Of a DNA stretch of 64,000 bases, positions 9,161 to 56,425 are shown in pieces. Source of the stretch: Nesterenkonia aurantiaca (GTDB taxonomy: Bacteria; Actinomycetota; Actinomycetes; Actinomycetales; Micrococcaceae). The notes below the pieces were generated by a model. It made no database searches. It was not told the DNA's origin and saw nothing but the letters and a program-made list of their open reading frames with translations. Each line of letters begins with the position of its first letter. Positions within the stretch are counted from its first letter, which is position 1. The stretch is from positions 186,001 through 250,000 of the forward strand of contig NZ_SOAN01000001.1 of assembly GCF_004364585.1 (NCBI RefSeq), given 5' to 3'. A program made the position numbers and the translations under genes.

Positions 9161-10549
9161 ATGGACATCCTGACAACCGGCGGCACGTTCGCCCTGGTGA
9201 TCGGCCTGCTGATCGCAGCAGTGCTGATCGGCATCGTGACCCTGCTGATCATGCGGGCATGGACCAAGGTCGCCCGGGCCGATGAAGCGCTGGTGGTCAC
9301 CGGCAAGTCCTCGCGATCCGACGTTCCGGGCTCGCGTCCCAAACAGGTCATCGTCAACGGCCGCGCCCTGGTCAACCCGATCCGGCAGCGCCACGAGATC
9401 ATCTCGCTGCGCTCCCGCCAGGTGCTGATGACGGTCACCGCCCAGAGCCATGACAACGTGACGATCAAGGCCGAGGCCGTGGCGCTGGTCAAGATCGGCA
9501 GTGCTGTCGAAGACGTCAAGGCTGCCTCGGAGCGCTTCGCCTCCCAGGACGACGCCGTGGTCGAGTACACCCAGGACCAGCTCGAAGGTGCGCTGCGCGG
9601 CCTGATGGCCCAGCAGACCGTCATCCAGCTGATGCGGGATCGACAGAAGTTCTCCGACGAGATCTCAAGGTCGATCTCTCCGGAGCTGCTGACCCAGGGC
9701 CTGTTGCTGGACTCCTTCCAGATCCGGGAGATCACCGACGACTCGGGCTACATCGCATCCCTGGGCGCCCCGGAGATCGAGGCCAAGCGCCAGGCCGCTG
9801 AGATCGCTGCGACCAACGCCGAGCGCGCGATCGCCAAGGAGCGCATCTTCAACAGCGAGCAGAACCTGGTCGAGGAGACGGAATACGACTCGAACAAGGC
9901 CGCTGCCACCTCACGGGTGGGCCAGGCCCGCGCCCAGGCCGAGCAGGCCGAAGCTCTGGCGGGCGAGAAGGCTCGGCAGGAGGTGCTCGGCCAGCGAGCC
10001 GAGAACCGGCAGGCCGAGCTCGACGCCGAGGTCAAGCGCGTGGCCGATGCGGATCTGTACAAGCAGCAGAAGCGCGCCGACGCCGAGGCCTACCAGCGCA
10101 CCAAGGCTGCTGAGGCCGAAGCACTCGTCGCCGAGTCCGAGGCTCGGGCACGGCTGAAGCGCTCCGAGGCCGAGGCCACCGCGATCCGCGAAGAGGGCGA
10201 GGCCAAGGCCGCCGCCATCCGCGCCGAGGCAGAAGCACTGCGCGAGAACCAGGAGGCCGTGCTGGCTCGCGAGGCCCTCGCGGTGCTCCCACAGCTCATG
10301 GACTCCTTCGCCGCCGGCTATGCCAACATCGGCTCGATGACACTGATCGGCGGCTCCGGCGAATCAGGCGCCTCCAAACACTTCGACGGCGAGGCCTCCG
10401 TGGCACTGGCCGGGGTGTTCAAACGGGTCGAAGCAGCCACCGGCATCGACCTGGGATCGATCCTGCAGGCGAAGGTTCAGGGAACGGCCATGGGCGAGGC
10501 GCTTGCCGAGTCCAATCACACTGATGCTGGCAGCGGCCAGAACCAGTAA
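9161..10549 (+). CDS. Flotillin-family SPFH protein
   Basis: A 462-residue membrane scaffold protein. A single N-terminal transmembrane helix (about residues 7-31) is followed by a Band-7/SPFH domain (about 35-195) and a long Glu/Ala-rich coiled coil (about 200-385) with repeated Glu-Ala pairs, the layout of FloT/YuaG. These proteins organise membrane microdomains and affect fluidity and signalling. The C-terminus has Ser/Gly-rich segments. A weak RBS AGAGG lies about 9 nt upstream of ATG 9161. No NfeD partner gene is adjacent, which is a departure from the floA/floT operons of Firmicutes. Confidence 0.9.
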   Translation: MDILTTGGTFALVIGLLIAAVLIGIVTLLIMRAWTKVARADEALVVTGKSSRSDVPGSRPKQVIVNGRALVNPIRQRHEIISLRSRQVLMTVTAQSHDNVTIKAEAVALVKIGSAVEDVKAASERFASQDDAVVEYTQDQLEGALRGLMAQQTVIQLMRDRQKFSDEISRSISPELLTQGLLLDSFQIREITDDSGYIASLGAPEIEAKRQAAEIAATNAERAIAKERIFNSEQNLVEETEYDSNKAAATSRVGQARAQAEQAEALAGEKARQEVLGQRAENRQAELDAEVKRVADADLYKQQKRADAEAYQRTKAAEAEALVAESEARARLKRSEAEATAIREEGEAKAAAIRAEAEALRENQEAVLAREALAVLPQLMDSFAAGYANIGSMTLIGGSGESGASKHFDGEASVALAGVFKRVEAATGIDLGSILQAKVQGTAMGEALAESNHTDAGSGQNQ

Positions 10550-10596
10550 CGACGGACGACCGGACGAATCACTATGGCAGCTGTTCGCTTGCGGAC

Positions 10597-10602
10597 TAGC
10601 AT
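10597..10602 (+). promoter_or_regulatory. Candidate -10 element (TAGCAT) for the lysR gene
   Basis: TAGCAT is followed by 6 nt and ATG 10609, without any Shine-Dalgarno sequence between, which suggests a leaderless transcript. Confidence 0.45.
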
Positions 10603-10608
10603 GGCCGA

Positions 10609-11562
10609 ATGGAGGTTCACAAAGCTCGAGCGTTTCTCACCGTCGCGGAGGAGCTGCACTTCGGTCGAGCCGCCAAGCGGCTGCACATGGCCCAACCGCC
10701 GCTCAGTCGGCTCATCCACCAGTTGGAGACCGAGCTGGGAGCCAAGCTTTTCGAACGTGACACTCGAAATGTGACCCTGACGCCAGAGGGTGAAGCGATC
10801 CTGCAACCTGCTCGCGAACTGCTCATGCTCTCGCAGCGGATCAAGGATGTAGTCGTGAAATCACAGAAGGGTGAGGTGGGGGGCGCCCGGCTGGGTTTCG
10901 CCGGCGCATCAGTCAACCAGGCAGTGGGGGAACTCGCACGTCAGATCCGGAGGCAACGTCCAGGGATCTCTCTGAAGCTCTACAGTTCGGAGTTTTCACA
11001 CCTGGGCCTGCAGAAGGTTCTGGACCGTTCCCTGGACCTGGTCATTGGCCGCTGGGACTTCCTGCCCGCCGAGATCAGCTCCCGTGTCGTCGGTGTGGAA
11101 GAGCTGCTGATCGCACTCCCGGAGAACCACCGTCTCGCAGGTCAGGACACCGTGGCAGCTGAAGACCTTGTCGATGAGTCATGGCTGGTCCTTCCTGGCG
11201 GCGCGGGGGCAACCCTGCCGAATCGACTCAACGCACTCGGCGTAGACGCGGGCTTCGTGCCGCGAATCGTGCAGGTGGCACCGGACTCCGGGACTCTCGT
11301 CGTGCTTGTCGGCGCGGAGATGGGGATCGCCCTCACCCTTTCAAGCGTGCGCGACCATGTTCCTTCCCGTGGCGTGGTCTACAGACCGTTGCGAAACCGG
11401 CAGAAACCAGTGGAGGTCCGGCTCATCTGGCGACGCGACGACGTCAGTCCGGGCCTGCGTGCCGTCGTCGACATCTCCAAGTCCGTCTTCCCCCCGCCCG
11501 ACACGCTGGACCCAGAATCCGCCTCAGCCCCGTCTGTGGGTCCGCCGCAGCGGCGATCATGA
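10609..11562 (+). CDS. LysR-family transcriptional regulator of the adjacent degradation operon
   Basis: A 317-residue LysR-type regulator. The winged helix-turn-helix lies at residues 18-37 (Phe-Gly-Arg-Ala-Ala-Lys-Arg-Leu-His-Met-Ala-Gln-Pro-Pro-Leu-Ser-Arg...). A substrate-binding domain spans about 90-295. It converges with the ten-gene minus-strand operon that starts at 22.5 kb, with 18 nt between the two stops. It most likely controls that operon and the divergent acyl-CoA dehydrogenase, with the substrate or its CoA ester as coinducer; this is inferred from position only. Base composition is lower than its neighbours: 145 of 240 G+C at 10801-11040 against 166 of 240 at 7081-7320 in paaK. 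Confidence 0.9.
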   Translation: MEVHKARAFLTVAEELHFGRAAKRLHMAQPPLSRLIHQLETELGAKLFERDTRNVTLTPEGEAILQPARELLMLSQRIKDVVVKSQKGEVGGARLGFAGASVNQAVGELARQIRRQRPGISLKLYSSEFSHLGLQKVLDRSLDLVIGRWDFLPAEISSRVVGVEELLIALPENHRLAGQDTVAAEDLVDESWLVLPGGAGATLPNRLNALGVDAGFVPRIVQVAPDSGTLVVLVGAEMGIALTLSSVRDHVPSRGVVYRPLRNRQKPVEVRLIWRRDDVSPGLRAVVDISKSVFPPPDTLDPESASAPSVGPPQRRS

Positions 11563-11580
11563 GGGCGCCTCCTCGCGGGG

Positions 11581-12438
11581 CTACTCGCCGTAGCTGTAGA
11601 AGCCTCTGCCGGTCTTGCGCCCCAGTTCATTTCTGGCGACCATCGCCCGCATGAGCGGCGGTGGGGTGAACCGGTCCCCCAGCTTGGACTCGAGGTACTC
11701 CGCGATTCCCAGGCGCACATCCAGGCCAACGACGTCGGTCAGAGCAAGTGGACCGATCGGGAACCTGTAGCCCAGCACCATCGCGTCATCGATGCTTTCA
11801 GGCGAGGCAACGCCTTCCTCGACCATCCGAATCGCTTCGAGGGCGATCACCAGTCCAAGACGCGAGGATGCGAAACCGGGCGAGTCGTGAACCACCACCG
11901 GAGTCTTGCCCAACCCCTCCACCCATCGCACCGACAGATCGCGGAGTTCCTGGTGCGTGTGCTTCGAGAGCACGACCTCGACAAGCTTCGAGGCGGGGAC
12001 CGGATTGAAGAAGTGGAGGCCGCAGAACCGTTCGGGGTTCGATAGCTGCCCAGCGAGGTCATCCACGGACAGAGAGGATGTGTTCGTGGCCAGCCAGGCC
12101 GTCCCCGAGAGATGCCGCTCGACGTCCTGCAGGGCAGAGATCTTCAGTGCCCAGGATTCTGGGACGGCTTCAACAACCAGCTCCGCCTGCGCAAGATCAG
12201 CATGGTCCACGCTCGTCCTGAGGCGTCCGGCCAGTTCCTGGAAACCCCCCTCCACCGAGCCTCGCTCAAGCGATCTCGAGATGTCCCGCTCGACTCGCTC
12301 CTTGGCCGCTCGTGCAGACTCCAGGTCTCGTTCGACGATCGTCACCCGAGCGCCGGCGAGCAGGAAGGAGTGGGCGATCCCTGCCCCCATGCGGCCTCCC
12401 CCGAGAACTCCGACCGCTGATGGGACCGCAGCGCTCAT
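11581..12438 (-). CDS. 3-hydroxyacyl-CoA dehydrogenase (paaH paralogue)
   Basis: A 285-residue NAD-dependent enzyme oxidising L-3-hydroxyacyl-CoA to 3-oxoacyl-CoA. Gly-Gly-Gly-Arg-Met-Gly at 13-18 binds NAD. Asn-Thr-Ser-Ser-Leu-Ser and Cys-Gly-Leu-His-Phe-Phe-Asn-Pro-Val-Pro carry the Ser and His of the catalytic site, and the C-terminal domain ends in Gly-Arg-Gly-Phe-Tyr-Ser-Tyr. ATG 12436-12438 shares an ATGA overlap with the thiolase stop codon, so translation is coupled. It is the last gene of the operon. It is clearly similar over its whole length to the paaH-type gene at 54716, sharing long identical blocks around Asn-Thr-Ser-Ser-Leu-Ser and Leu-Gly-Ile-Ala-Glu-Tyr-Leu-Glu-Ser. Confidence 0.92.
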   Translation of the reverse strand: MSAAVPSAVGVLGGGRMGAGIAHSFLLAGARVTIVERDLESARAAKERVERDISRSLERGSVEGGFQELAGRLRTSVDHADLAQAELVVEAVPESWALKISALQDVERHLSGTAWLATNTSSLSVDDLAGQLSNPERFCGLHFFNPVPASKLVEVVLSKHTHQELRDLSVRWVEGLGKTPVVVHDSPGFASSRLGLVIALEAIRMVEEGVASPESIDDAMVLGYRFPIGPLALTDVVGLDVRLGIAEYLESKLGDRFTPPPLMRAMVARNELGRKTGRGFYSYGE

Positions 12439-13637
12439 CAGGTCTTTTCCACGAGCATCGCCGTGCCCTGGCCGACGCCGACACACATCGTGACCAGGCC
12501 CATCGTTGCGGATTCACGCTCCATGCGCCCCAGCAGAGTGGTGGTGATCCTGGACCCTGACGAGCCCAGGGCGTGACCGAGGGCGATTGCGCCGCCGTCG
12601 TTGTTCACGGTCCCGGCATCGAGCCCGAGGCGCCTGATGCAGGCCAATGACTGGGTGGCAAAGGCCTCGTTCAGTTCGACGGCGCCGAGGTCGTCGATGG
12701 AGTAGCCGCTGCGCTCGAGCACCTTGTTGGTGGCCGGAACCGGTCCGAGTCCCATGAGATGAGGGGCCACCCCGGCCGAGGCGCCGTCCACGATCCGCGC
12801 TCGAGCGGCAAGGCCATACTTCTTGATGGCCCGCTCCGAGGCGACCAGTATCGCCGAGGCGCCGTCATTGAGGGAGGAAGAGTTCCCGGCCGTGACGATC
12901 CCGTCGGTCTTGACCACGGGACGCAGACGCGCGAGGACCTCGGGGGTGGTGCCCGCGCGGGGTCCCTCATCGGCGACTACGACCGTCTCGGCGCCCTTGC
13001 GACCCTTCACGGTGACGGGAACGATCTCCTGCGTGAAGCGACCGGCGTCGCTCGCGGCGATGGCGCGCTCGTGGGAGGCGACGGCGAACGCGTCTGCATC
13101 CTCCCGGGTGATGCCGTCCACGACCGCGACCTCCTCGGCGGTCTCGGGCATCGAGTAGGTCAACTTGTCGATCTTCTTGAACTCTGGATTTGTGAACCTC
13201 CAGCCGATTGAGGTGTCGAAGACCTCCCCGGGCTTTGCGAAGGCTGCGGTCGGCTTCTCGATGACCCATGGGGCACGGGACATGGACTCGACACCACCAG
13301 CGATGACAAGGTCAGCCGCCCCGGACTTGATCATGTGTGAGGCCGTGATGATCGCCGACAGGCTGGAGGCGCACAGCCGGTTGACGGTGATCCCCGGAAC
13401 GGTGTCGGGGAAGCCTGCCAGCAGCCAGGCCATGCGGGCGACGTTGCGGTTGTCTTCCCCGGCACCGTTGGCACAGCCGAGGATGACCTCGTCGACGTCG
13501 TGAGGGTCGATGCCCGCCTCAGCCACCGTGTGCTGGATCACCAGGGCGGCCAGGTCGTCCGGGCGGACGCTGGCCAGCGCGCCGCCGTAGTTGCCCGTCG
13601 GGGTGCGGGAACCGCCGACCAAGAATGCTTCCGTCAC
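12438..13637 (-). CDS. Acyl-CoA thiolase (acetyl-CoA acyltransferase, paaJ paralogue)
   Basis: A 399-residue thiolase that cleaves a 3-oxoacyl-CoA with CoA, releasing acetyl-CoA. The nucleophile is Cys89 in Val-Asn-Arg-Leu-Cys-Ala-Ser. His355 and Cys385 (Thr-Met-Cys-Val-Gly-Val-Gly-Gln-Gly) complete the active site. The His motif reads Gly-His-Ala-Leu-Gly instead of the usual Gly-His-Pro. The start codon is GTG with a GGGAAGAG-like RBS. It is a paralogue of the thiolase at 56426, with nearly identical stretches such as Asn-Arg-Asn-Val-Ala-Arg-Met-Ala-Trp-Leu-Leu-Ala-Gly-Phe-Pro-Asp. It overlaps the downstream dehydrogenase by ATGA. Confidence 0.93.
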   Translation of the reverse strand: MTEAFLVGGSRTPTGNYGGALASVRPDDLAALVIQHTVAEAGIDPHDVDEVILGCANGAGEDNRNVARMAWLLAGFPDTVPGITVNRLCASSLSAIITASHMIKSGAADLVIAGGVESMSRAPWVIEKPTAAFAKPGEVFDTSIGWRFTNPEFKKIDKLTYSMPETAEEVAVVDGITREDADAFAVASHERAIAASDAGRFTQEIVPVTVKGRKGAETVVVADEGPRAGTTPEVLARLRPVVKTDGIVTAGNSSSLNDGASAILVASERAIKKYGLAARARIVDGASAGVAPHLMGLGPVPATNKVLERSGYSIDDLGAVELNEAFATQSLACIRRLGLDAGTVNNDGGAIALGHALGSSGSRITTTLLGRMERESATMGLVTMCVGVGQGTAMLVEKT

Positions 13638-13679
13638 TGTCTCTTCCCATCTGTCGTGAGGTCAGGTTGTCTGGGCTTT

Positions 13680-14909
13680 TCACTTGAAGGCGGAGATCCC
13701 GGTGATGTCTCGTCCTACGAGCAGGGACTGGATGGCGTCGGTACCTTCATAGGTGGAGACGACCTCCATATCGGTCATGTGCCGGGCCACGTGATTCTCC
13801 AGCAGGAGACCGTTGCCGGCGAGCAGATCCCGGGCCTCGTTGCAGATCCACTTTCCCTTCTGAGCAGTCGCCATCTTCACCATCGAGGCCTGCGCATTGG
13901 TCAGCTGACCGCGGTCGGCAAGCTCGGCCATCCGGTTGCACAACAGCTGCATCGTGGTGAGTTCGCTGAGCATGTTGGCCAGCCGGGACTGCACGAGCTG
14001 ATAGCCCCCGATGACGTTGCCGAACTGCTTGCGTCTGGACGCGTAGTCAGCGGCGATCTCGAAGGTCGCCATCGCGTGGCCCACCGCTTCCCAGGAGGCG
14101 CCTCCGCGGGTTGCCTGGAGCACCCGAGACACGTCCTTGAACGAGTTGCATCCGGTGAGTCGGTTCTCGTCCGGGACCCGCAGATCCTTGATCAAGATGT
14201 CAGCCTGCTGGATGGCCCGCTTACCCACCTTGCCTGTGATGCGTTCGGGCGCGTATCCGGCGGGGTAGTCGTTGTTCTCGTCTTTCTCCACGACGAACGC
14301 GTTGACCTTCCCGTCCTCGACGTTGCGTGCGAACACGACGACGACGTCGGCAGCATCCCCGTTGCCGATCCAGCGCTTGTGCCCGTCGATCACCCACGTG
14401 TCACCCTCGCGGCGGGCGCTGGTCTCCAGCGCGACAGAGTCGGAGCCGTGGTCGGGTTCGGTCAGCGCGAACGCACCGGTCTTCTTCAGCTGTGCCATCT
14501 CCGGCAGCCAGCGCGCCTTCTGCGTCTCGCTGCCGAGCATGTTCAAGGTGCCCATGCACAGGTTGGCGTGCACTCCGATGAACGTATTGATGCTGCCGTC
14601 GGCGCGGGCCATCTCACGAGCCACCAGTCCGGCGGCCTTCCTGCTCATTCCAGGGCAGCCGTAGCCCTGAATGGTGGTGCCGATGATGCCTAGCTCTGCC
14701 AATCCGGGCACCAGCTCCCAGGGAAACTCAGCCCGCTCCCAGTAGTCGTTGATGACTGGCAGCACCTGCAGCTCGGCGAAGGACCGCACCTTGTCTCGGA
14801 CGGCGATCTCCTCTGGGCTGAGATCGTCGTCGAGACGGAAGTAGTCGGCGTCGGTGGTGGTGCCGGTGGCCGCTGCGGGTGCGCTCCGGGTCGATGTGGT
14901 TGCGGTCAT
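13680..14909 (-). CDS. Acyl-CoA dehydrogenase, glutaryl-CoA-dehydrogenase-like but without its carboxylate site
   Basis: A 409-residue FAD acyl-CoA dehydrogenase. The catalytic base is Glu388 in Tyr-Glu-Gly-Thr, and the end reads Gly-Arg-Asp-Ile-Thr-Gly-Ile-Ser-Ala-Phe, the glutaryl-CoA dehydrogenase subgroup pattern. However, the Arg and Ser that bind the distal carboxylate in glutaryl-CoA dehydrogenase (human Arg94, Ser98) are Asn108 and Gly112 here, so a monocarboxylyl-CoA substrate is more likely. The first 25 residues are a Thr/Ala-rich extension. I chose ATG 14909 for its AAGGA RBS 8-9 nt upstream; a GTG/ATG further out is less likely because it would overlap the thioesterase gene. Confidence 0.9.
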   Translation of the reverse strand: MTATTSTRSAPAAATGTTTDADYFRLDDDLSPEEIAVRDKVRSFAELQVLPVINDYWERAEFPWELVPGLAELGIIGTTIQGYGCPGMSRKAAGLVAREMARADGSINTFIGVHANLCMGTLNMLGSETQKARWLPEMAQLKKTGAFALTEPDHGSDSVALETSARREGDTWVIDGHKRWIGNGDAADVVVVFARNVEDGKVNAFVVEKDENNDYPAGYAPERITGKVGKRAIQQADILIKDLRVPDENRLTGCNSFKDVSRVLQATRGGASWEAVGHAMATFEIAADYASRRKQFGNVIGGYQLVQSRLANMLSELTTMQLLCNRMAELADRGQLTNAQASMVKMATAQKGKWICNEARDLLAGNGLLLENHVARHMTDMEVVSTYEGTDAIQSLLVGRDITGISAFK

Positions 14910-14965
14910 GGTCGGTCCTTTCGTCGACGGGTCGGTGGACCCGGCCTGGTGGTGGGTTCGTGCGT

Positions 14966-15427
14966 TCACTGCTGTTCGGTCGAGGCGCCGGGCTCAGCCC
15001 CGGGCGGAACCGGCTTCGACTCTGGGGTGAGGATCTGGGTGAGCGTGCGGCTCAGGCGCTCGGGAAGCGGGGCGGACCGTCCTGAGGCGGGGTCTGTCTG
15101 GACGAGCACTGTCCGAGCACGGACCGCGATCTCGTCGTACTGGACCAGCTCGTAGTCCACCGTGTAGGAGGAACGGCCGATCGCAGCGACCCAGACACGC
15201 GCCGTCAGCTCCGGTCCATGGTCCAGTGGGCGCAGGTAGTCGACGGTGAGGGAGACGACCACCCGCGGCCGGGCTGGGTCAGGAATGCCGTCCTCGCCCA
15301 ACCAGGAGGTGATCGCAGATATCCGCGCCTCCTCGATCAGGGTCACCACACGGGCGTTGTTGACGTGCCCGTTGAGGTCCTGATCCGACCAGCGAACGGG
15401 TAGCACGACGTGGTGGACGGCGCTCAT
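14966..15427 (-). CDS. Hotdog-fold acyl-CoA thioesterase (4-hydroxybenzoyl-CoA thioesterase / FadM type)
   Basis: A 153-residue thioesterase. Arg-Trp-Ser-Asp-Gln-Asp-Leu-Asn-Gly-His-Val-Asn-Asn-Ala-Arg (about 12-26) is the family signature, and the Asp before Leu-Asn-Gly-His is the catalytic carboxylate. It probably releases CoA from dead-end esters, a safety role like that of PaaI. The start overlaps the stop of the upstream CoA-transferase by 4 nt (ATGA), so it is a co-translated operon member. The C-terminal 20 residues are Pro/Ala-rich and beyond the fold. Confidence 0.85.
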   Translation of the reverse strand: MSAVHHVVLPVRWSDQDLNGHVNNARVVTLIEEARISAITSWLGEDGIPDPARPRVVVSLTVDYLRPLDHGPELTARVWVAAIGRSSYTVDYELVQYDEIAVRARTVLVQTDPASGRSAPLPERLSRTLTQILTPESKPVPPGAEPGASTEQQ

Positions 15428-16638
15428 GAGGCTTTCCGCACTTCAGGCTCGACGCGCTCAAGCCACGCCATCACCCGATCTCGGTCGCCATCGAGGCGGG
15501 GCGGAGCATGGGTGTAGTCGACCGGAGTTCGGCTGAAGTCCACCGGATGTCGGACCGTGGGGATCTTCCGCTCTCCGGAACCGGCCATGACCACCGGCTC
15601 CAAGCCGAGGCCTTCGGCGAAATGAACACCTTCGTCCACCCCGAGGATCGGCGCGCAGGGCACCTGTGCCGCCTTGAGTCGTTCGAACCAGTCGGCGGCG
15701 TTGCGCGTGCTGAGTCCGTCGATCAGGAGCTGACGCAGCTCCACGCGGTTGGCGTTTCGAGCCCCCACGGTGGCGAAGCGCTCATCCACAGCGAGCTCGG
15801 GGGCCCCGAGGCACTGGCACAGGCGGGTGAACTGCCCGTTGTTGCCCACGGCGATCACCATGTTCTTGTCCTGAGTGGGGAACGGCTCATAGGGATACAG
15901 GCTCGGGTGCTCGTTGCCCATGCGAGTCGGGACGCTGCCGCCGGCCACGTAGGCGGCGGACTGGTTGACCAGCCCCGAGAGCGCCGAGGTCAACAGGTTG
16001 AGCTCGACGTGCTGCCCGGTCCCGGAACCCTGACGCTCATGGAATGCCCCCAGGATGCCGGAGACCGCGTGGAGTCCGGTGATCACGTCGAAGAGCGCCA
16101 CGCCCGCGCGGTAGGGTTCGCCGGATTCGCTGCCGGTGAGGCTCATCATCCCCGAAAGCGCCTGGGCAAGCAGGTCGTAGCCGGGAAGATCGGCTCCACC
16201 CGCGGTGCCGAAACCGGTGATGGAGGCATAGACGAGATCAGGACGCCACGCGCTGACGCTCTCGTAGTCGAGTCCGTAGCGCCTGAGTCCGCCGGGCTTG
16301 AAGTTCTCCACCAACACATCGGCCCGGGCGATGATCCGCTCCACGACCTTGAGCTGTGCCGGGTCCGAGAAGTCCAAGGAGATGGATTGCTTGTTGCGGT
16401 TGACCGAGAGGAAGAACGTGCTCTCCCCGTCCCGGTGCGGAGGAACCCATGCGCGGGCGTCGTCCCCGGTGGTGGATTCCACCTTGATGACGGTCGCGCC
16501 CATATCGGCGAGGAGCATCGTGGCGTAGGGCCCTGCAAGCACGCGGCTGAGATCCGCCACCACGACCCCGGCGAGCGGGCCTGTGCCTCGGCGACCGAAG
16601 ATCTCCTCCAGAACACCCAAGTCATCGAATCGACTCAT
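15424..16638 (-). CDS. Family III CoA-transferase (CaiB/BaiF type)
   Basis: A 404-residue CoA-transferase that would activate the imported carboxylic acid by taking CoA from a donor such as succinyl-CoA. The interlocked-dimer family has a catalytic Asp that forms an acyl anhydride; here it is Asp184 in Val-Ala-Leu-Phe-Asp-Val-Ile-Thr-Gly-Leu-His-Ala. The N-terminal Gly-Pro-Tyr-Ala-Thr-Met-Leu-Leu-Ala-Asp-Met-Gly-Ala (about 36-48) and Glu-Asn-Phe-Lys-Pro-Gly (111-116) are conserved. A related family member next to glutaryl-CoA dehydrogenase (SUGCT) activates glutarate. No acyl-CoA ligase is present in this operon, so this enzyme is the likely entry step. It is translationally coupled to the thioesterase. 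Confidence 0.92.
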   Translation of the reverse strand: MSRFDDLGVLEEIFGRRGTGPLAGVVVADLSRVLAGPYATMLLADMGATVIKVESTTGDDARAWVPPHRDGESTFFLSVNRNKQSISLDFSDPAQLKVVERIIARADVLVENFKPGGLRRYGLDYESVSAWRPDLVYASITGFGTAGGADLPGYDLLAQALSGMMSLTGSESGEPYRAGVALFDVITGLHAVSGILGAFHERQGSGTGQHVELNLLTSALSGLVNQSAAYVAGGSVPTRMGNEHPSLYPYEPFPTQDKNMVIAVGNNGQFTRLCQCLGAPELAVDERFATVGARNANRVELRQLLIDGLSTRNAADWFERLKAAQVPCAPILGVDEGVHFAEGLGLEPVVMAGSGERKIPTVRHPVDFSRTPVDYTHAPPRLDGDRDRVMAWLERVEPEVRKAS

Positions 16639-16686
16639 GTCGTCTCTCTTCCTCTTCTTCTCGTGTCTGTTCGACGTCGGGGCTGC

Positions 16687-17568
16687 TCAGCCTGTGTACT
16701 CATACCAGCCACGGCCGTTCTTGCGTCCATAGCGGCCCTGCTCATAGAGCTTCTGCACCGACGGGTGCGGCAGATCTGCCGGGTCTCCGCTCTGCTCGTA
16801 CTCGGAGAGTCGGATCAGATACGACACGTCGATCCCCACCAGGTCCATGAGCTCGAACGGACCCATGGGGTGGCCCAGGGCTGTCCGGGCGGCCACATCG
16901 ATGTCCTGGTAGCTCGCCACGCCGTCGGCCTCCAGCCGCAGAGCCTCGTTCCGCAGTGCACCCAGCAGACGGTTGGCGACGAACCCCGGGATCTCCTTGT
17001 TCAACCGGACAGGCTGCTTCCCGAGCCGGTCCACCATCCCAAGCGCCGCCTCCACAGTCGCGTCCGAGGTCTGTGGGTTGCGCACCACCTCGACGCAGTT
17101 CATCACCAGCGCCGGGTTGAAGAAGTGCATGTTGCACACCCGGTCGGGCCTGGCTGTGGCATCCATGAGCAGAGACGAAGGGATGGTCGAGGAGTTGGTC
17201 GCCAGGATCACATGTTCCGGGGCGGCTTCGTCGAGAGCGGCGAACAGCTCTCGTTTGATGTCGATCCGTTCCACGGCGGCTTCGAGCACGAAGTCGGTCG
17301 TCCGAGCCGCCTCGAGGGAGTCCGTCGTATACGTCATCCGCTCCAGCGCGGAGTCGACCTCCTCGCTGCTGAAGGCCCCCTTCTCGGCCAGTCGTCGGAG
17401 GCGCCGCTGCGCCTCATCCCGCGACTGGTCAAGAGCTTCGGCGGCGAGGTCGCCTGTGGTCACGGTGTAGCCGGCCAGGGCGAAGGCCGCCCCGATCTGC
17501 GTTCCCATGGCCCCAGCTCCGACGACGAGGACGTCGTCGATGGTGTCGATGGTCGAATCGGGCGTCAT
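16687..17568 (-). CDS. 3-hydroxybutyryl-CoA dehydrogenase-type enzyme
   Basis: A 293-residue NAD(P)-dependent 3-hydroxyacyl-CoA dehydrogenase. Gly-Ala-Gly-Ala-Met-Gly at 17-22 binds the nucleotide, Asn-Ser-Ser-Thr-Ile-Pro and Met-His-Phe-Phe-Asn-Pro-Ala carry the active-site Ser and His, and Gly-Arg-Gly-Trp-Tyr-Glu-Tyr closes the C-terminal domain. It belongs to a different subgroup from the terminal gene of this operon, so the two probably act on different chain lengths or substituents. An AAGGAG RBS precedes ATG 17568. Confidence 0.92.
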   Translation of the reverse strand: MTPDSTIDTIDDVLVVGAGAMGTQIGAAFALAGYTVTTGDLAAEALDQSRDEAQRRLRRLAEKGAFSSEEVDSALERMTYTTDSLEAARTTDFVLEAAVERIDIKRELFAALDEAAPEHVILATNSSTIPSSLLMDATARPDRVCNMHFFNPALVMNCVEVVRNPQTSDATVEAALGMVDRLGKQPVRLNKEIPGFVANRLLGALRNEALRLEADGVASYQDIDVAARTALGHPMGPFELMDLVGIDVSYLIRLSEYEQSGDPADLPHPSVQKLYEQGRYGRKNGRGWYEYTG

Positions 17569-17649
17569 GTCTGCTCCTTGAGATGCTTCGCTGAAGTGCT
17601 TGGAAACTGTCCCGGGTTGGTCACGGGATCATCGATCAGGCTGTGGACG

Positions 17650-18471
17650 TCACTCCTCGGCGCGGAATCGCGCGCGGCGCTTCTCGAGGAACGCCGTGGC
17701 GCCTTCAGCCTTCTCATCGGAGGCGTAGAGCAGGGACTGCGCCAGGCGTTCGAGCAGCAGCCCTGTGGACTGGTCCGTCTCGGCGCCGCCGCGCACGACG
17801 AGCTTGGCCAGCCGCACGGCCAGCGGACCCTTGGCCAGGATCGTCTCGGCCGTGGACAGCACGGTGTCCATCAGCTCCTCGGCAGGGACCACGCTGGTCA
17901 CCAACCCGATGCGCAGAGCCTCATCCGCGTCGATGATGCGGCCGGTGAGGATCATCTCCTGCGCCCGGCCCAGGCCGACAAGTCGTGACAGCCGCTGGGT
18001 GCCTCCGGCGCCGGGAAGGATTCCGAGGTTGGTCTCAGGCAGGCCGAATTGAGCATTCTGCGCCGCCACGCGGATGTCGCAGGACATCGCCAATTCGTTG
18101 CCCCCGCCCAGTGCGAAGCCGTTGACCGCCGCAATGGTGGGCAGATCAGATTCCTGGATCCGGTCCCATAACCGCTGCATCCGAGCAGTGAGCCCGTCAC
18201 GCAGCGTGTAGCCGATGAGCTGATTGATGTCCGCGCCGGCCACGAACGCCTTCTCTCCATGACCGGTGAACACGACGGCACCGACGTCACCGTTGCGCTC
18301 GAGCGAGTCGAGCGCGGCCTCGATCCCATCCAGCACGCCGAAGTTCAGGGCATTGCGCACCTCCGGCCGGTTCACGGTCACAACAGCAACACCGCCTCTG
18401 ATCTCGGTGGTGACGACGCTTGTCCCGGGGGCAGCGCCGCTGGCGCTGCTGGTGGTGGTGGTCTCTGTCAT
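17650..18471 (-). CDS. Enoyl-CoA hydratase
   Basis: A 273-residue crotonase-superfamily hydratase adding water to a trans-2-enoyl-CoA. Both catalytic glutamates are present: Glu126 in Gly-Gly-Gly-Asn-Glu-Leu-Ala and Glu146 in Gly-Leu-Pro-Glu-Thr-Asn-Leu-Gly, followed by Pro-Gly-Ala-Gly-Gly-Thr-Gln-Arg-Leu. The oxyanion-hole segment Ala-Gly-Ala-Asp-Ile lies at 78-82. The first 20 residues are a Thr/Ser/Ala-rich extension. RBS AAAGGA is 6 nt from ATG 18471. It lies between the dehydrogenase and the transporter genes of the operon. Confidence 0.93.
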   Translation of the reverse strand: MTETTTTSSASGAAPGTSVVTTEIRGGVAVVTVNRPEVRNALNFGVLDGIEAALDSLERNGDVGAVVFTGHGEKAFVAGADINQLIGYTLRDGLTARMQRLWDRIQESDLPTIAAVNGFALGGGNELAMSCDIRVAAQNAQFGLPETNLGILPGAGGTQRLSRLVGLGRAQEMILTGRIIDADEALRIGLVTSVVPAEELMDTVLSTAETILAKGPLAVRLAKLVVRGGAETDQSTGLLLERLAQSLLYASDEKAEGATAFLEKRRARFRAEE

Positions 18472-18486
18472 GTCTGGTCCTTTCGA

Positions 18487-20493
18487 TCAGGCGACGCTTG
18501 TCGCAGGCGCGGGAGTCTGGGCGGGGATAGCACCGTCGTCGGCGGGGGTCCCGGGCTTCACGATCAGGAAGGCGAGCAGGAGGCTGGCCGCCACGAGCGC
18601 CAGTCCCAGGACGGCGCTGAGCGGCGCTGGCATGAACAGCAGGAACCCTCCGACGGCGCCCAAGAGGCGACCCAGGACGGGCATCCGGCGGTCGAAGCCG
18701 ACCGTCCAGCCCTCGATGGCCGAGGCCAGGGCGTAGACGCCTACGATGCTCAGTGCGAACGCGAGCAGCACCCGCCCGGCTGAATCTTGTGCCACGAGCG
18801 CGGGATTGAGGGCGAATCCGAACGGAACGATGTACTTCACCGCTCCCAGCTTCATGGCCGCCACGCAGGTGCCCATGGGAGAAGCCTTGGCGATTCCTGC
18901 CGCGGCGAAGGCGGCGAGACCTACGGGCGGGGTGATGTAGGAGACGGACGCCCAGTAGATGACGAACAGGTGGGCAGCGAGCGGGTTGACCCCCAGCTCG
19001 ATGACCGCGGGGACCATCACGATTGCCAGGAACACGTACGCCGCCGAGATCGTCATGCCCATGCCGAGGATGAAGCAGGTGACGGCGCCGGCGATGAGGA
19101 TGAGCACCACATTGTCGCCGACCGCTGCCACCAGCTCGCGGGCGAGGGAGAGGCTCACCCCCGTCGCCGTGAGGCCCCCGACGATCAGGCCGACGCCGGC
19201 GATGATCCCGATGATGTTTCCCAGCGTCCGACCGGCGGCCACAAGGAAGTCGGCGAACTCGCGCAGGCCGAACTTCTGGCTCGGGCGCAGGACAGCCACG
19301 ACCAGCAGCACCAGGATCACCCAATACGGCACCTGGGTCTCGGAGTTCGTGAAGAAGAGCAGCCCGGTGAGCAGAAGCAGGGCCATGATGTAGGGCCAGC
19401 CCTGCACCAGCGTGATGAGGGTCCGAGGGAGAAGCGCCACCGAGACGCCCTTCAGACCCTTTCGGGCGGCGTAGCCGTCGACCTGCAGGTAGATGCCGAG
19501 GAAGAAGAGGGCTGCAGGGATGGACGCGGCGATGAGGATCTCGGTGTAGGGCACTCCCACGAAGGAGACCATGAGGAACGCTGCGGTACCCATGATGGGA
19601 GGCGTGATGGACCCGCCTGAGGCTGCCGTGGCCTCGACCCCACCGGCATAGGTGGGACTGAACCCGGAGCGCTTCATGGCTGGAATGGTCATCGGCCCCG
19701 TGGTCAGGACATTGGAGACCGCGCTTCCGCTCATCATGCCCATCGCTGCGCTGCTCGCCACGGACACCTTCGCCGCGCCGCCTCTGTAGCGGCCGAAGAT
19801 CGACATCGAAAGTCTGTGGAAGAAGTCGGCACCGCCAGTGTGCTGCAGGGCCACCCCGAAGACCAGAAAACCGACCAGGATGGTTGCCGCAGTCTGGATG
19901 GGCAGGCCCAGCAGGCTCTCGGCTCCCATGGTGTGCACCTGTGCCAGGGTCTTGAGGTCGTAGCTGACACCCTGAAGGACTCCGATAGGAAGATCCCCCG
20001 CCACCAGTGGATACAGTGAGAACAGCAGGGCGATCACCGTGACGATCATTCCACCGGTCCGGCGCAGCGCTTCGAGCACCACGATCCACAGCAGGAACGC
20101 GGCGACTGTCGCGGCGGTGGGCGCCATGTACTCCCAGCCGAAGTCGTGGATACGGGTCCCGTTGACGGCGAAATAGCCGCAGACGCTCGCCGCAACCACC
20201 ATCAGCAGCACATCGAAAGCCTGCACTGGGCGTTCCTCGGGAGCGAGGTCGTCGCCAGATCCGTCCTCCCGCTGCTCCGCCGCCTGAGCGAGCGGGATCT
20301 TGCGCAGCGGATTGACGATGAACACCACCGGGAGGAACACGCCCAGGATCAGATAGAGGTACGAGTTCCTCAGCAGAGCCAGTCCGCCCACGTTCCAGAA
20401 GAAGACCTGGTTCATGGCGAGCAGCACGCCCAGGACCGTCAGCACGATCACGACCATCCGCCAGAACGGCGTCACTCGGTTCTCAGTTCTCAT
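18487..20493 (-). CDS. TRAP transporter fused permease (4TM plus 12TM), TAXI type
   Basis: A 668-residue polytopic membrane protein with many hydrophobic helices. The N-terminal quarter corresponds to the small DctQ-like subunit and the remainder to the large DctM-like subunit, as in TAXI-TRAP systems. Conserved stretches include Ser-Ala-Ala-Met-Gly-Met-Met-Ser-Gly-Ser-Ala (about 240) and Thr-Pro-Pro-Val-Gly-Leu-Ala-Ala (about 515). It uses an ion gradient to import a carboxylate delivered by the binding protein. I place the start at ATG 20493 because GAGAGGA lies 6 nt upstream; it overlaps the binding-protein gene by 11 nt. Confidence 0.93.
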   Translation of the reverse strand: MRTENRVTPFWRMVVIVLTVLGVLLAMNQVFFWNVGGLALLRNSYLYLILGVFLPVVFIVNPLRKIPLAQAAEQREDGSGDDLAPEERPVQAFDVLLMVVAASVCGYFAVNGTRIHDFGWEYMAPTAATVAAFLLWIVVLEALRRTGGMIVTVIALLFSLYPLVAGDLPIGVLQGVSYDLKTLAQVHTMGAESLLGLPIQTAATILVGFLVFGVALQHTGGADFFHRLSMSIFGRYRGGAAKVSVASSAAMGMMSGSAVSNVLTTGPMTIPAMKRSGFSPTYAGGVEATAASGGSITPPIMGTAAFLMVSFVGVPYTEILIAASIPAALFFLGIYLQVDGYAARKGLKGVSVALLPRTLITLVQGWPYIMALLLLTGLLFFTNSETQVPYWVILVLLVVAVLRPSQKFGLREFADFLVAAGRTLGNIIGIIAGVGLIVGGLTATGVSLSLARELVAAVGDNVVLILIAGAVTCFILGMGMTISAAYVFLAIVMVPAVIELGVNPLAAHLFVIYWASVSYITPPVGLAAFAAAGIAKASPMGTCVAAMKLGAVKYIVPFGFALNPALVAQDSAGRVLLAFALSIVGVYALASAIEGWTVGFDRRMPVLGRLLGAVGGFLLFMPAPLSAVLGLALVAASLLLAFLIVKPGTPADDGAIPAQTPAPATSVA

Positions 20494-21637
20494 CGCTGGT
20501 CCTCTCGTTTCCCAAGTTCTCGGCCTTCCATTCGGTCCAGTTCTCTTCGAGGTCCTGCTCGGAAGAGGACTCCAGGACGGTGGGCCAGGCTTCCCGCATC
20601 CGCTCGCCACGCTCGATCAGTTCGTTGTTCTTCTCCTCGAGCTCCTCCGTCCACACTCCGCGCTCCTTGAAGAAGCGGACGGTGCCGGCGTGGAACGGGA
20701 CCACCAGAGGTTCTTTGAGGACCGCGTCGAGGGAGAACTGCTGGGTGTCCGGCGTGGTGTCCTCGTAGTGCTCATAGTTCTCGACCATCGATTTCACGAG
20801 GAGGTAGACCTCCTCGGTGTCTCGGTCCCCCATCGTGGTGATCGGAATCGTGTACTCCAGGACCTGGGCGCTCTCGCCCTCCTCCACACCCGGGACGTCG
20901 GTCACCTCACCGACGTTCACCATGGGCATGAGCTCGTCCCAGGTCTCGTAGCGGCCCGGGTCTGGGTCGTCGAAGGTCAGCCATTTCACATCGGTCGTGG
21001 AGGCGAGCTCCTCGATGTTGGAGCCGACGACGTTCTGGTAGAGGGAATCGATCCGACCCGCCTGGAGAGCATCGAGCTGCTCGGCGTAGGAGATGGGAAC
21101 TTTCTGGACATCCTCACCGGTGAGGCCGCCATAGTTGAGGAACCCCTCCATCTTGTTGTTGATGGAGGTGCTCGCGGTCAGGTCAGGGAACTGTGTGCCC
21201 TCCAGGTCCTCGAAGGAGTCGATGCCGCTGTCCGCGCGGACCAACAGGCCGTAGTAGCCGAGGGGAGCCCACACCAGACTCACGTCCTGGGGCCCCCACT
21301 GCTCGTTGGCATACTCATAGTCGCCCTCGAAGGCGTAGAAGTACTCGTCGCCGGCCCGGGCATAGTCTGCGGTGCCGTTCACCAGCGGGGCCAGGCGGCC
21401 GATGCCGGTGTCCGAGGTCATCAGCCGCACCTGAAGCCCCTCTTCGTTGGTCAGGGTGTTCGCGATAGCGGCAAGGTCGTTATAGGTGCCGGTGCCCACG
21501 TTGTAGGTGGACCACACCGATTGCTCCGGCAGTGCGTCGGAGTCCGCACCCGCGCTGGCGTCGCCGCTGGCACAGCCGGTAAGGGCGAGCAGTGCGACGG
21601 CGCTCAAGGCAGTTGCACGGATCTTCGCTGTCTTCAT
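20483..21637 (-). CDS. TAXI-family TRAP transporter solute-binding lipoprotein
   Basis: A 384-residue extracytoplasmic binding protein with a lipobox Leu-Thr-Gly-Cys and lipidated Cys22. The domain starts near residue 40 with Trp-Ser-Thr-Tyr-Asn-Val-Gly-Thr-Gly-Thr-Tyr, the TAXI (TRAP-associated extracytoplasmic immunogenic) type. It hands its ligand to the fused permease whose gene overlaps the 3' end. Known TAXI ligands include glutamate and 2-oxoglutarate-like dicarboxylates, which would fit a dicarboxylate pathway. Ligand identity here is inferred only from neighbours. RBS GAAAGG precedes ATG 21637. Confidence 0.93.
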   Translation of the reverse strand: MKTAKIRATALSAVALLALTGCASGDASAGADSDALPEQSVWSTYNVGTGTYNDLAAIANTLTNEEGLQVRLMTSDTGIGRLAPLVNGTADYARAGDEYFYAFEGDYEYANEQWGPQDVSLVWAPLGYYGLLVRADSGIDSFEDLEGTQFPDLTASTSINNKMEGFLNYGGLTGEDVQKVPISYAEQLDALQAGRIDSLYQNVVGSNIEELASTTDVKWLTFDDPDPGRYETWDELMPMVNVGEVTDVPGVEEGESAQVLEYTIPITTMGDRDTEEVYLLVKSMVENYEHYEDTTPDTQQFSLDAVLKEPLVVPFHAGTVRFFKERGVWTEELEEKNNELIERGERMREAWPTVLESSSEQDLEENWTEWKAENLGNERTSDEN

Positions 21638-21667
21638 CGTGGCCTTTCGATCTACAGAGGTCGGCGC

Positions 21668-22465
21668 TCAGCGCCCGGAGAAGGAAGGAGCCCTCTTCTG
21701 GAGAAGGGCCTTTTTGCCTTCCATAAAGTCAGAGGTCTCGAACAGGGCGGGCTGGTGCTCCCGCTCGAAGAGGAGGGCCTCCTCGTAGGTGCTGGAGGCT
21801 TCGCGGATCCCGCGCTTGACCGCAGCGACGGCCAGCGGCGCCCTGCTCGCGAGTTCCTCGGCGCGGGCCATCGCGGCGGGCAGCACGTCCTGGTCCGTCA
21901 CCAGGTGATCGGCAAGACCTGTGGCGAGTGCCTCGGTCCCAGCGATGGGCACTGCCTCGAGCAGAATCTTCTGCGCACGTGCGGCGCCCACTCTTCGGAC
22001 CAGCGAGTGGATCAGCCCGCCGTCGGCGATCAGGCCCAACCGGGTGAACGGGAACAAGAATCGCGCACTGGTGCCGATCACGACGACGTCGCAGCAACAC
22101 ACCAGGCCCACCGCCACACCCGCCGCGGGACCGCTCACCGCGGCGACGACCGGTTTGTCGAGCGTTGCCAGCCGACGGACGAGAACCGCGAGATCTTCCA
22201 TGCGGGCGGCACCCTCGGCTGGATCCGTGGGCGGCATCGCTGCCAGGTCACCACCGCTGCTGAAGCATTCTCCCGAGCCGGTCAACACCACGGCCCGCAC
22301 TCTCGGATCTTCGGCGAGCTCCGCCAGCTCGGCGCGCAGTTCGGTGCGCATCCGGGATCCGAGCACGTTTCGGCGGGGAGGATCCTCGAGCACCACGATC
22401 GCCACGGCACCAGCACGCTGGACACGTACTCGCGCCGAAGTGTCGGCGGGGAGCTGATGCGGCAC
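21668..22465 (-). CDS. Crotonase-superfamily protein, probable enoyl-CoA isomerase rather than hydratase
   Basis: About 265 residues, first gene of the minus-strand operon. Both hydratase glutamates are missing: the positions hold Gly120 (Gly-Val-Ala-Val-Gly-Leu) and Phe140 (Phe-Pro-Phe-Thr-Arg-Leu-Gly). Instead Ile-Ala-Asp148-Gly-Gly provides an acidic residue where PaaG-type and delta3-delta2 isomerases have theirs. The oxyanion-hole segment Ser-Gly-Gly-Asp-Leu is intact. Isomerisation of an unsaturated CoA ester is therefore the better guess. The start is uncertain: GGAG lies 6 nt before GTG 22465, whereas an in-frame TTG at 22477 has no RBS. Confidence 0.82.
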   Translation of the reverse strand: MPHQLPADTSARVRVQRAGAVAIVVLEDPPRRNVLGSRMRTELRAELAELAEDPRVRAVVLTGSGECFSSGGDLAAMPPTDPAEGAARMEDLAVLVRRLATLDKPVVAAVSGPAAGVAVGLVCCCDVVVIGTSARFLFPFTRLGLIADGGLIHSLVRRVGAARAQKILLEAVPIAGTEALATGLADHLVTDQDVLPAAMARAEELASRAPLAVAAVKRGIREASSTYEEALLFEREHQPALFETSDFMEGKKALLQKRAPSFSGR

Positions 22466-22527
22466 GGAAGTCTCCAATGTGTGGGAAAAATGTCGTGCAG
22501 ATCACACTTCCACGGCCACTGATAAAG

Positions 22528-22576
22528 TTCAAATACCTAATGAAGGGTTGATTGATACCTGTATCGCAATTATCCG
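22528..22576. promoter_or_regulatory. Divergent control region with LysR-type inverted repeats
   Basis: This A+T-rich patch lies between the minus-strand operon and the divergent acyl-CoA dehydrogenase. It holds TTCA-N9-TGAA (22528-22544) and GATAC-CT-GTATC (22554-22565). ATACCT recurs at 22533 and 22555, 22 bp apart, or two helical turns. A candidate plus-strand promoter is TTGATT (22548-22553), 17 nt, TATCCG (22571-22576). It is the natural binding region for the LysR regulator encoded at 10609. Confidence 0.5.
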
Positions 22577-22654
22577 CTTCGAGGTGTTATCCGGATCACA
22601 AGTGCGCAATCCTAGGAAAAGACCTCTGCACATCCCGTCTTCAAGGAGCGCTCC

Positions 22655-23833
22655 ATGAACCCAGCCGCAGCAGATCTGCTCGATGTCGAAGCAGACTTCA
22701 GTTCCGAGGAGCGTGAGACCCAGGGAATGGTTCGCGAGTTCGTGGACAGACGCATCCGTCCGAACATCGCCGCGTGGTACGCGGATGCACACTTCCCGCA
22801 GGAGATCATCGCTGAGATGGCCACGCTTGGTCTGCTCGGCATGCATATCAAGGGTTATGGGTGCGCCGGAAAGTCCGCAGTGCAGTACGGCATCGCCATG
22901 CAAGAACTCGAGGCCGGAGATTCTGGCCTGCGCACATTCGTCTCGGTCCAAGGCTCGCTGGCGATGTCCGCGATCGCCAAGCATGGCTCCGAGGAGCAGA
23001 AGCAGCGTTACCTGCCAGGCATGGCCGCCGGTGAGATCATCGGGTGCTTCGGACTGACCGAGCCCACCGCGGGCTCGGACCCGTCAACCATGGCGACCAC
23101 CGCAGTGCGCGAGGGCGACCAGTGGGTCCTCCAGGGCGTCAAGCGCTGGATCGGTCTCGCCTCGATCGCCCAGGTGGCCGTGATCTGGGCGAAGGTCGTC
23201 GACGAGAGCGGGCGCAGTCGGGTCCGCGGCTTCCTCGTTCCCACCGACACTCCCGGTTTCACCGCTACTCCCATCGAGCAGAAGCTGTCGATGCGCGCCT
23301 CCATCCAGTGCGACATCACCATGGAGGACGTCCGTCTTCCGGCCGATGCCATCCTTCCCGAGAACCCGGGACTCCGAGGCCCCTTCTCATGCCTCAACGA
23401 GGCCCGCTACGGCATCATCTGGGGAGCCCTGGGGGCAGCGCGGGACAGCTTCAATGCCGCCCTGGAGTATTCCCAGCACCGAGTTCAGTTCGACAAGCCG
23501 CTTGCGGCGTACCAGCTCTCCCAGGCAAAACTCGTGAACATGGCCCTGGAGATCCAGAAGGGGCAGCTGTTGGCGCTGCGCATCGGCCGCCTCAAGGATC
23601 AGAATCGCTTGGAGAACCACATGATCTCCGCGGGCAAGTTGAACAACTGCAGGATCGCGATCGACGTGTGCAGAGAAGCGCGCACGATGCTCGGTGGCAA
23701 CGGCGTCACCCTCGACTACTCGCCGCTGCGCCATGCCAACAATCTCGAGTCCGTGCGCACCTACGAGGGCACCGATGAGGTGCACAGCCTGATCCTCGGC
23801 CAGCACCTCACCGGACACTCCGCCTTCCGCTGA
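22655..23833 (+). CDS. Acyl-CoA dehydrogenase of the glutaryl-CoA dehydrogenase type
   Basis: A 392-residue FAD enzyme. It keeps the glutaryl-CoA dehydrogenase signature residues: Arg93 and Ser97 (Gly-Leu-Arg-Thr-Phe-Val-Ser) match human Arg94 and Ser98, and Glu371 in Tyr-Glu-Gly-Thr matches the base Glu370. Other landmarks are Gly-Tyr-Gly-Cys-Ala-Gly (68-72) and Cys-Phe-Gly-Leu-Thr-Glu-Pro-Thr-Ala-Gly-Ser-Asp-Pro. It could oxidise and decarboxylate glutaryl-CoA to crotonyl-CoA, or act on a related dicarboxylyl-CoA. RBS AAGGAG is 7 nt from ATG 22655. It is divergent from the ten-gene operon and presumably co-regulated with it. Confidence 0.9.
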   Translation: MNPAAADLLDVEADFSSEERETQGMVREFVDRRIRPNIAAWYADAHFPQEIIAEMATLGLLGMHIKGYGCAGKSAVQYGIAMQELEAGDSGLRTFVSVQGSLAMSAIAKHGSEEQKQRYLPGMAAGEIIGCFGLTEPTAGSDPSTMATTAVREGDQWVLQGVKRWIGLASIAQVAVIWAKVVDESGRSRVRGFLVPTDTPGFTATPIEQKLSMRASIQCDITMEDVRLPADAILPENPGLRGPFSCLNEARYGIIWGALGAARDSFNAALEYSQHRVQFDKPLAAYQLSQAKLVNMALEIQKGQLLALRIGRLKDQNRLENHMISAGKLNNCRIAIDVCREARTMLGGNGVTLDYSPLRHANNLESVRTYEGTDEVHSLILGQHLTGHSAFR

Positions 23834-23873
23834 GCCGGACTGCGCCCTGTGGTTTCGGGGCCAGGACCGGCTC
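23832..23873 (+). terminator. Possible weak terminator after the acyl-CoA dehydrogenase
   Basis: GAGCCGG (23832-23838) pairs with CCGGCTC (23867-23873); the 28-nt loop can fold a second GCCC/GGGGC stem. There is no T-run. Confidence 0.3.
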
Positions 23874-56421: not shown

Positions 56422-56425
56422 GGGC

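Follow-up and report, generated by a model that had tools for sequence, protein, structure and literature searches.

Within a 64,000-nucleotide stretch of the 2.95-Mb genome of Nesterenkonia aurantiaca (bases 186001-250000 of contig C1, NZ_SOAN01000001.1; hereafter the window, to which positions refer unless another record is named), twelve genes at 10609-23833 form an island that combines a LysR-type regulator, a TAXI-TRAP transporter and a family III coenzyme A (CoA)-transferase with two acyl-CoA dehydrogenases, two crotonases, two 3-hydroxyacyl-CoA dehydrogenases, a thiolase and a thioesterase (gene labels as in Table 1). The original prediction, made from the letters alone, had named these twelve genes and their family-level functions between the same coordinates, and our profile searches of the open reading frame (ORF) list agree with it. 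Ten genes form a minus-strand run from 22477 to 11581 with intergenic gaps of -11 to 81 bp; the LysR gene converges on this run at a distance of 18 bp, and GCDH diverges from its opposite end over 177 bp. Relative to the program-made ORF list, starts were corrected for HAD1 (12438), TRAP (20493) and ACD1 (14909), the ATG chosen for ACD1 being confirmed as such.

The island is the junction of two units that occur separately in other actinobacteria, since module A (GCDH, ECH1, HAD2) and module B (ACD1, HAD1, THL) stand apart in other loci. For instance, Kocuria dechangensis (locus L003) carries GCDH, ECH2, TAXI, TRAP, ECH1, HAD2, CoAT, a major facilitator superfamily (MFS) permease and LysR, and ACD1, THL, HAD1 and TE were not found at this locus. 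LysR, CoAT, ACD1, a crotonase and HAD1 occur without GCDH in two Arthrobacter loci (L010, L011) and on the Brevibacterium plasmid pAP13 (L116), with THL seen in L011 alone among these. Furthermore, GCDH, ECH1 and HAD2 are grouped together in L005 and L107, and in L007 CoAT, TE, ACD1 and THL are accompanied by a short-chain dehydrogenase/reductase (SDR), a MaoC protein and an MFS permease, as if the SDR and the MaoC protein stood in place of HAD1 and a hydratase, unrelated enzymes filling the same steps. Loci were chosen by the CoA-transferase alone, blind to its neighbours (the best 80 of 585), with flanks of up to 10 kb, some shortened by contig ends; a GCDH match required at least 44% identity, and THL and HAD1 were counted at 60% identity or more. 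GCDH lay in the flank of 35 of the 80 loci, ACD1 in that of nine and both in five; four loci had ACD1 without GCDH, and THL (5/5) and HAD1 (2/2) occurred only with ACD1. The original prediction had pointed to a surplus of enzymes over those that glutarate would need, and this surplus resolves into module B.

Table 1. Genes and control region of the island (positions in the window).
Feature	Position	Strand	Basis
LysR-family regulator	10609..11562	+	Pfam HTH_1 and LysR_substrate; best NCBIfam model AlsR, 191 bits (cut-off 430)
HAD1, 3-hydroxyacyl-CoA dehydrogenase, module B	11581..12438	-	3HCDH_N/3HCDH
THL, 3-oxoadipyl-CoA-thiolase-like, module B	12438..13637	-	PRK09050 and pcaF best models, both under cut-off
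ACD1, acyl-CoA dehydrogenase related to plant ACX4, module B	13680..14909	-	2ix5, 355 bits
TE, 4HBT-fold thioesterase	14966..15427	-	4HBT_2
CoAT, family III CoA-transferase	15424..16638	-	CoA_transf_3, 378 bits
HAD2, 3-hydroxyacyl/3-hydroxybutyryl-CoA dehydrogenase, module A	16687..17568	-	Profile matches; with GCDH and ECH1 in L005, L107
ECH1, predicted short-chain enoyl-CoA hydratase, module A	17650..18471	-	5z7r, 225 bits; both catalytic Glu in alignment
TRAP, fused permease	18487..20493	-	TIGR02123, 589 bits, above cut-off
TAXI, solute-binding lipoprotein	20483..21637	-	TIGR02122, 199.5 bits, above cut-off; LTGC lipobox (by eye)
ECH2, crotonase-fold, isomerase-like	21668..22477	-	Hydratase Glu pair not kept
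Divergent control region, two AGGTAT boxes	22478..22654		Alignment of four islands
GCDH, decarboxylating-type glutaryl-CoA dehydrogenase, module A	22655..23833	+	3swo, 485 bits

The two acyl-CoA dehydrogenases carry different signatures. The closest solved structures of GCDH are glutaryl-CoA dehydrogenases (3swo, followed by 3sf6 at 472 bits), and the best solved match of ACD1 is the plant peroxisomal acyl-CoA oxidase 4 (ACX4). We aligned the dehydrogenase copies of the fetched loci (43 of GCDH and 27 of ACD1, the window and a few duplicates included) and adopted a residue numbering of glutaryl-CoA dehydrogenase in which we take Arg94 to contact the distal carboxylate and Glu370 to be catalytic. 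Equivalents of Glu87, Arg94 and Glu370 are kept in all 43 GCDH copies; of the three, ACD1 retains the catalytic Glu alone (27 of 27 copies), and Arg94 is replaced throughout, by N (26) or A (1). By these signatures, therefore, only one of the two dehydrogenases looks like a glutaryl-CoA dehydrogenase, and ACD1 as a second one was rejected because Arg94 is absent. A PimC/PimD-type pimeloyl-CoA dehydrogenase was rejected as well, with scores of 55-89 bits against cut-offs above 620.

In four relatives the site of the island is empty. In genome G021 the counterpart of 10546 is followed after 144 bp by that of 23904, and in G020 the counterpart of 10519 is followed after 195 bp by that of 23939 (blastn); in G015 and G011 the island is likewise absent between a flotillin-like gene and paaA. 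Among 42 relatives examined, five have these two flanking genes in close proximity on a single contig; of the five, G017 alone carries the island, and in the four that lack it no GCDH, ACD1 or TAXI match was found at the limits used. At E <= 1e-150 the genome of the window yields one match to GCDH. The flotillin-like gene (9161-10549), which was matched in 12 of 43 genomes including the window's own (11 of the same genus), lies beside the paa genes immediately left of the insertion point. Of the flanking genes, paaA and paaC score above their cut-offs and paaK slightly below (639 versus 646), so that the island sits in a phenylacetate neighbourhood and is not part of the phenylacetate genes. 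The lower local G+C content noticed in the original prediction was found again, with 63.5% in LysR versus 67.1% in paaK; the entire island (65.1%) also lies below the remainder of the window (68.4%), the lowest value among 13.2-kb segments to the right of the island being 67.05%.

A copy of the island is carried by the mobilizable plasmid 1 of Kocuria flava (NZ_CP013255.1, 22967-37635), the only one among 72,556 plasmid records to cover at least 80% of it (megablast). The plasmid copy has the same twelve genes in the same order, annotated there as separate genes, with proteins 70-88% identical to those of the window; it differs in that TE and ACD1 are separated by an additional MFS permease, and in its flanking elements, with an IS256 transposase gene at one end and an ISL3-type fragment at the opposite end. 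Homology between both copies (blastn, 10590-23835, with short unaligned stretches within) stops 19 bp before LysR and 2 bp past the GCDH stop. The boundaries given in the original prediction thus nearly coincide with a unit shared with this plasmid, which makes the block non-arbitrary. Four proteins were joined for a tree of 18 islands, which included two duplicate pairs and left out G017; in it the window, K. flava and K. dechangensis were split with support 100 from the other 15, which include six congeneric islands and a third Kocuria (L008/L105); support inside the group of three was 77. The six congeneric islands (L099-L104) are considerably more distant, with 61-63% identity of the CoA-transferase, and in G017 every gene is at least 90% identical to that of the window. 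Because of the empty sites, the plasmid copy between transposase genes and the grouping with K. flava and K. dechangensis rather than with the six congeneric islands, the island is a discrete, well-bounded and horizontally acquired unit, with transfer possible in either direction. Beside the G017 island, about 3 kb between GCDH and paaA (L098, 3803-6855) do not align to the window and contain long ORFs, of which one resembles TetR by eye.

TAXI was matched in 15 of 147 genomes, counting that of the window, and in 13 of these 15 (the window included; not in L110 and L111) CoAT lies in the same 20-kb stretch. Among 30 same-genus genomes, GCDH was matched in 8/8 with TAXI versus 7/22 without, and ACD1 in 8/8 versus 3/22; the one-sided Fisher values of 0.0011 and 2.8e-5, respectively, overstate the case, as the genomes are related and kinship is uncorrected. 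On plasmids, 243 records had an ACD1 match. Among six inspected, K. flava carries the island, pAP13 has ACD1, CoAT and HAD1, and two show a fatty-acid--CoA ligase; a Tsukamurella plasmid has an ACD1-like gene beside a "CoA-transferase" and none of the other island genes, and the sixth, from Paraburkholderia, is unannotated.

From this gene content we infer the substrates, the ligand of the transporter and the regulation: the island likely imports and degrades short straight-chain alpha,omega-dicarboxylates of C5-C7, i.e. glutarate, adipate and pimelate. The TAXI lipoprotein and the fused TRAP permease would import the diacid, onto which CoAT would transfer CoA from a donor such as succinyl-CoA. 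The predicted activities of module A fit a route from glutaryl-CoA to acetoacetyl-CoA, in which GCDH would form crotonyl-CoA by oxidation and loss of CO2, ECH1 3-hydroxybutyryl-CoA and HAD2 acetoacetyl-CoA, whose thiolysis would give two acetyl-CoA. Those of module B fit one turn of beta-oxidation of a C6 or longer dicarboxylyl-CoA, such that adipyl-CoA would be converted into succinyl-CoA and acetyl-CoA by ACD1, ECH1 as the hydratase, HAD1 and THL, and pimelyl-CoA would use module B first and module A second. Trapped CoA might be released by TE; ECH2 may shift the positions of double bonds, and LysR would sense the diacid or its CoA ester. The gene families thus bear out a single catabolic unit in which an imported carboxylate is activated by a CoA-transferase, as had originally been suggested, and of the substrates then considered a longer dicarboxylate is to be preferred, given that the additional enzymes make up a module that occurs without GCDH elsewhere (L010, L011, pAP13).

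CoAT scores above the cut-off of PF02515 and has an Asp within the motif FDVITG, at what we presume to be the catalytic position of the family. The solved relatives of THL include a beta-ketoadipyl-CoA thiolase (414 bits). A second HAD-crotonase-thiolase set lies on the minus strand of the window at 54716-57631 (HAD at 54716-55597), and its thiolase and HAD are 73% and 63% identical to THL and HAD1, respectively; its thiolase is pcaF-like too (523 bits, under cut-off), and this set is possibly the source or a sister of module B. At the columns that we take to hold the catalytic Glu residues of crotonases, ECH1 keeps both and ECH2 has G and F instead; ECH2 is probably an isomerase or another crotonase-fold activity, much as the isomerase-like second crotonase of the original prediction. 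Membership of the transporter in the TAXI-TRAP family is given by scores above cut-off for both components. The two AGGTAT boxes upstream of GCDH, 22 bp apart and kept in four islands, are possibly a LysR site, predicted from the alignment; a simple scan found no LysR dyad in the 177-bp gap between GCDH and ECH2. Elsewhere in the genome, a second family III CoA-transferase (G000:C2:131917-133017, L112) is 57% identical to CoAT, with no other island-gene matches in the 20 kb fetched around it.

Several points weigh against this scheme. Neither GCDH nor ACD1 lies in the flank of 41 of the 80 CoA-transferase loci, some flanks being limited by contig ends, and since about half of the loci thus show neither dehydrogenase, the CoA-transferase alone is no proof of the pathway. 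Within the fetched 20 kb, GCDH is absent from six of 13 family islands; all six genomes have it elsewhere. Scores against curated models stay under the cut-offs for CoAT (best NCBIfam model succinate--glutarate CoA-transferase, NF052585, 361 bits versus a cut-off of 750) and THL (PRK09050, 528 versus 605; pcaF, TIGR02430, 522 versus 597), solved TAXI proteins are no more than remote relatives of the one encoded here (46 bits at best), and ECH2 is without a firm place in the pathway. Finally, ACD1 relatives of 63-64% identity on Paenarthrobacter and Pseudarthrobacter plasmids (both Micrococcaceae) stand beside a fatty-acid--CoA ligase, with no CoA-transferase annotated, so that the ACD1 subfamily is not confined to dicarboxylates.

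Three other explanations deserve to be weighed. The joint presence of both modules in one operon is what the serial need of an odd-chain diacid would produce, with module B shortening C7 to C5 and module A finishing, so that the island might be dedicated to pimelate and possibly azelate, adipate not being a natural substrate; in the available text on Ralstonia CL21, moreover, a glutaryl-CoA dehydrogenase mutant is given values of -4.7 on pimelate, -4.6 on azelate and only -1.2 on glutarate (PMC12543098). We consider such a dedication rather unlikely, as module A occurs with the same transporter type and without module B in K. dechangensis, ACD1 and HAD1 occur without GCDH in L010, L011 and on pAP13, and THL resembles a C6 thiolase family; each module seems useful alone, since each occurs separately. 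The match of ACD1 to plant ACX4 and its relatives beside fatty-acid--CoA ligases on two plasmids would instead suit a pathway for glutarate only, in which ACD1, THL, HAD1 and TE are general enzymes for short-chain monocarboxylates that share the operon by chance. This appears improbable given the proximity of ACD1 to a CoA-transferase in nine of the 80 loci, four of them lacking GCDH, and a partner thiolase of the 3-oxoadipyl-CoA type.

Degradation of a cyclic or branched acid, which the original prediction had entertained, we judge highly improbable: no ring-cleaving family is represented among the twelve genes, the two joined modules explain the surplus enzymes, and such a substrate is not needed. 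A ring might feed the pathway from outside, as a Baeyer-Villiger-type monooxygenase, a hydrolase and an alcohol dehydrogenase are encoded beside the K. flava copy, but these lie beyond a transposase fragment and the genome of the window has one weak match to the monooxygenase (29% over about 200 residues), for which the block was rejected as a part of the island. A cyclohexane-carboxylate pathway was likewise rejected, with both dehydrogenases scoring 119-145 bits where the cut-offs are 575 and 650 (TIGR03207, NF043006) and no ring-cleaving family seen. The K. flava block itself (L113, NZ_CP013255.1, 19330-28814) further contains TetR, two SDRs and a tripartite tricarboxylate transporter next to its alpha/beta hydrolase, and by its gene families it could convert a cyclic ketone into a diacid.

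Import and degradation of C5-C7 dicarboxylates thus remains our preferred reading. Neither its chemistry nor its type of regulator is novel; new is their union with TAXI-TRAP uptake on one mobile island. No publication on this cluster was found, judged by the titles and abstract openings of the papers listed, with most subscription journals outside coverage. As far as the available text goes, the medium-chain dicarboxylate genes dcaAKIJP of Acinetobacter baylyi resemble the island in the activation and beta-oxidation of adipate and longer diacids (PMC10870600, PMC12543098); in contrast, the island has a family III CoA-transferase encoded by one gene, uptake by TAXI-TRAP and an integral branch for glutaryl-CoA. 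In Pseudomonas putida, the accessible parts of PMC10870600 describe a LysR regulator, GcdR, whose effector is glutarate and which controls gcdH and the CoA-transferase PP_0159, and a breakdown of pimelate through glutaryl-CoA. The core of the island (LysR, glutaryl-CoA dehydrogenase, family III CoA-transferase) is like this glutarate set, so that the term "unassigned" used in the original prediction was too broad for the core and stands for the combination, which adds ECH1, HAD2, TAXI-TRAP, a second beta-oxidation module and a transferable actinobacterial location to what the consulted portions of PMC10870600 contain. Acyl-CoA dehydrogenases specific for dicarboxylates, and phenotypes of glutaryl-CoA dehydrogenase on diacids of odd chain length, are found in the available text of PMC12543098, and that of PMC9477822, on adipate formed from a herbicide in Gulosibacter, mentions neither a CoA-transferase nor TRAP nor glutaryl.

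Described TAXI-TRAP systems share with the island a TAXI solute-binding protein and a fused permease, and differ in the ligand, here predicted to be a C5-C7 diacid. Within the accessible parts of PMC12632250 and PMC6362003, TAXI ligands are L-glutamate and, as a proposal, o-phthalate, so that C5-C7 diacids, a ligand class not given there, would be a testable new one. In the island one can see how two pathways that occur apart became linked and spread within the Micrococcaceae. Polyesters and polyamides contain adipate, glutarate and pimelate as monomers or yield them as products, and a compact mobile unit comprising import, activation, both modules and a regulator would be a ready engineering part. 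A broader proposal, quite conceivable to us but one towards which we do not lean, is that of a plasmid-borne, chromosome-inserting island that would deliver C5-C7-specific TAXI-TRAP uptake, a composite C5 and C6 pathway and a sensor in one step, such that recipients like the present strain could grow on plastic-type monomers and ECH2 would extend the range to unsaturated diacids.

Two minor observations concern relatives of island proteins in other surroundings. On two Rhodobacterales plasmids (L125, 7971-12412; L127, 7926-12385), a TAXI gene of 32% identity adjoins genes for LysR and a two-subunit CoA-transferase, and a thiolase gene lies close by, which places TAXI with acyl-CoA catabolism outside actinobacteria as well. 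On a Pseudarthrobacter plasmid (L115, 16703-18947), an annotated ThiF adenylyltransferase adjoins a multiubiquitin-domain protein near an ACD1-like gene.

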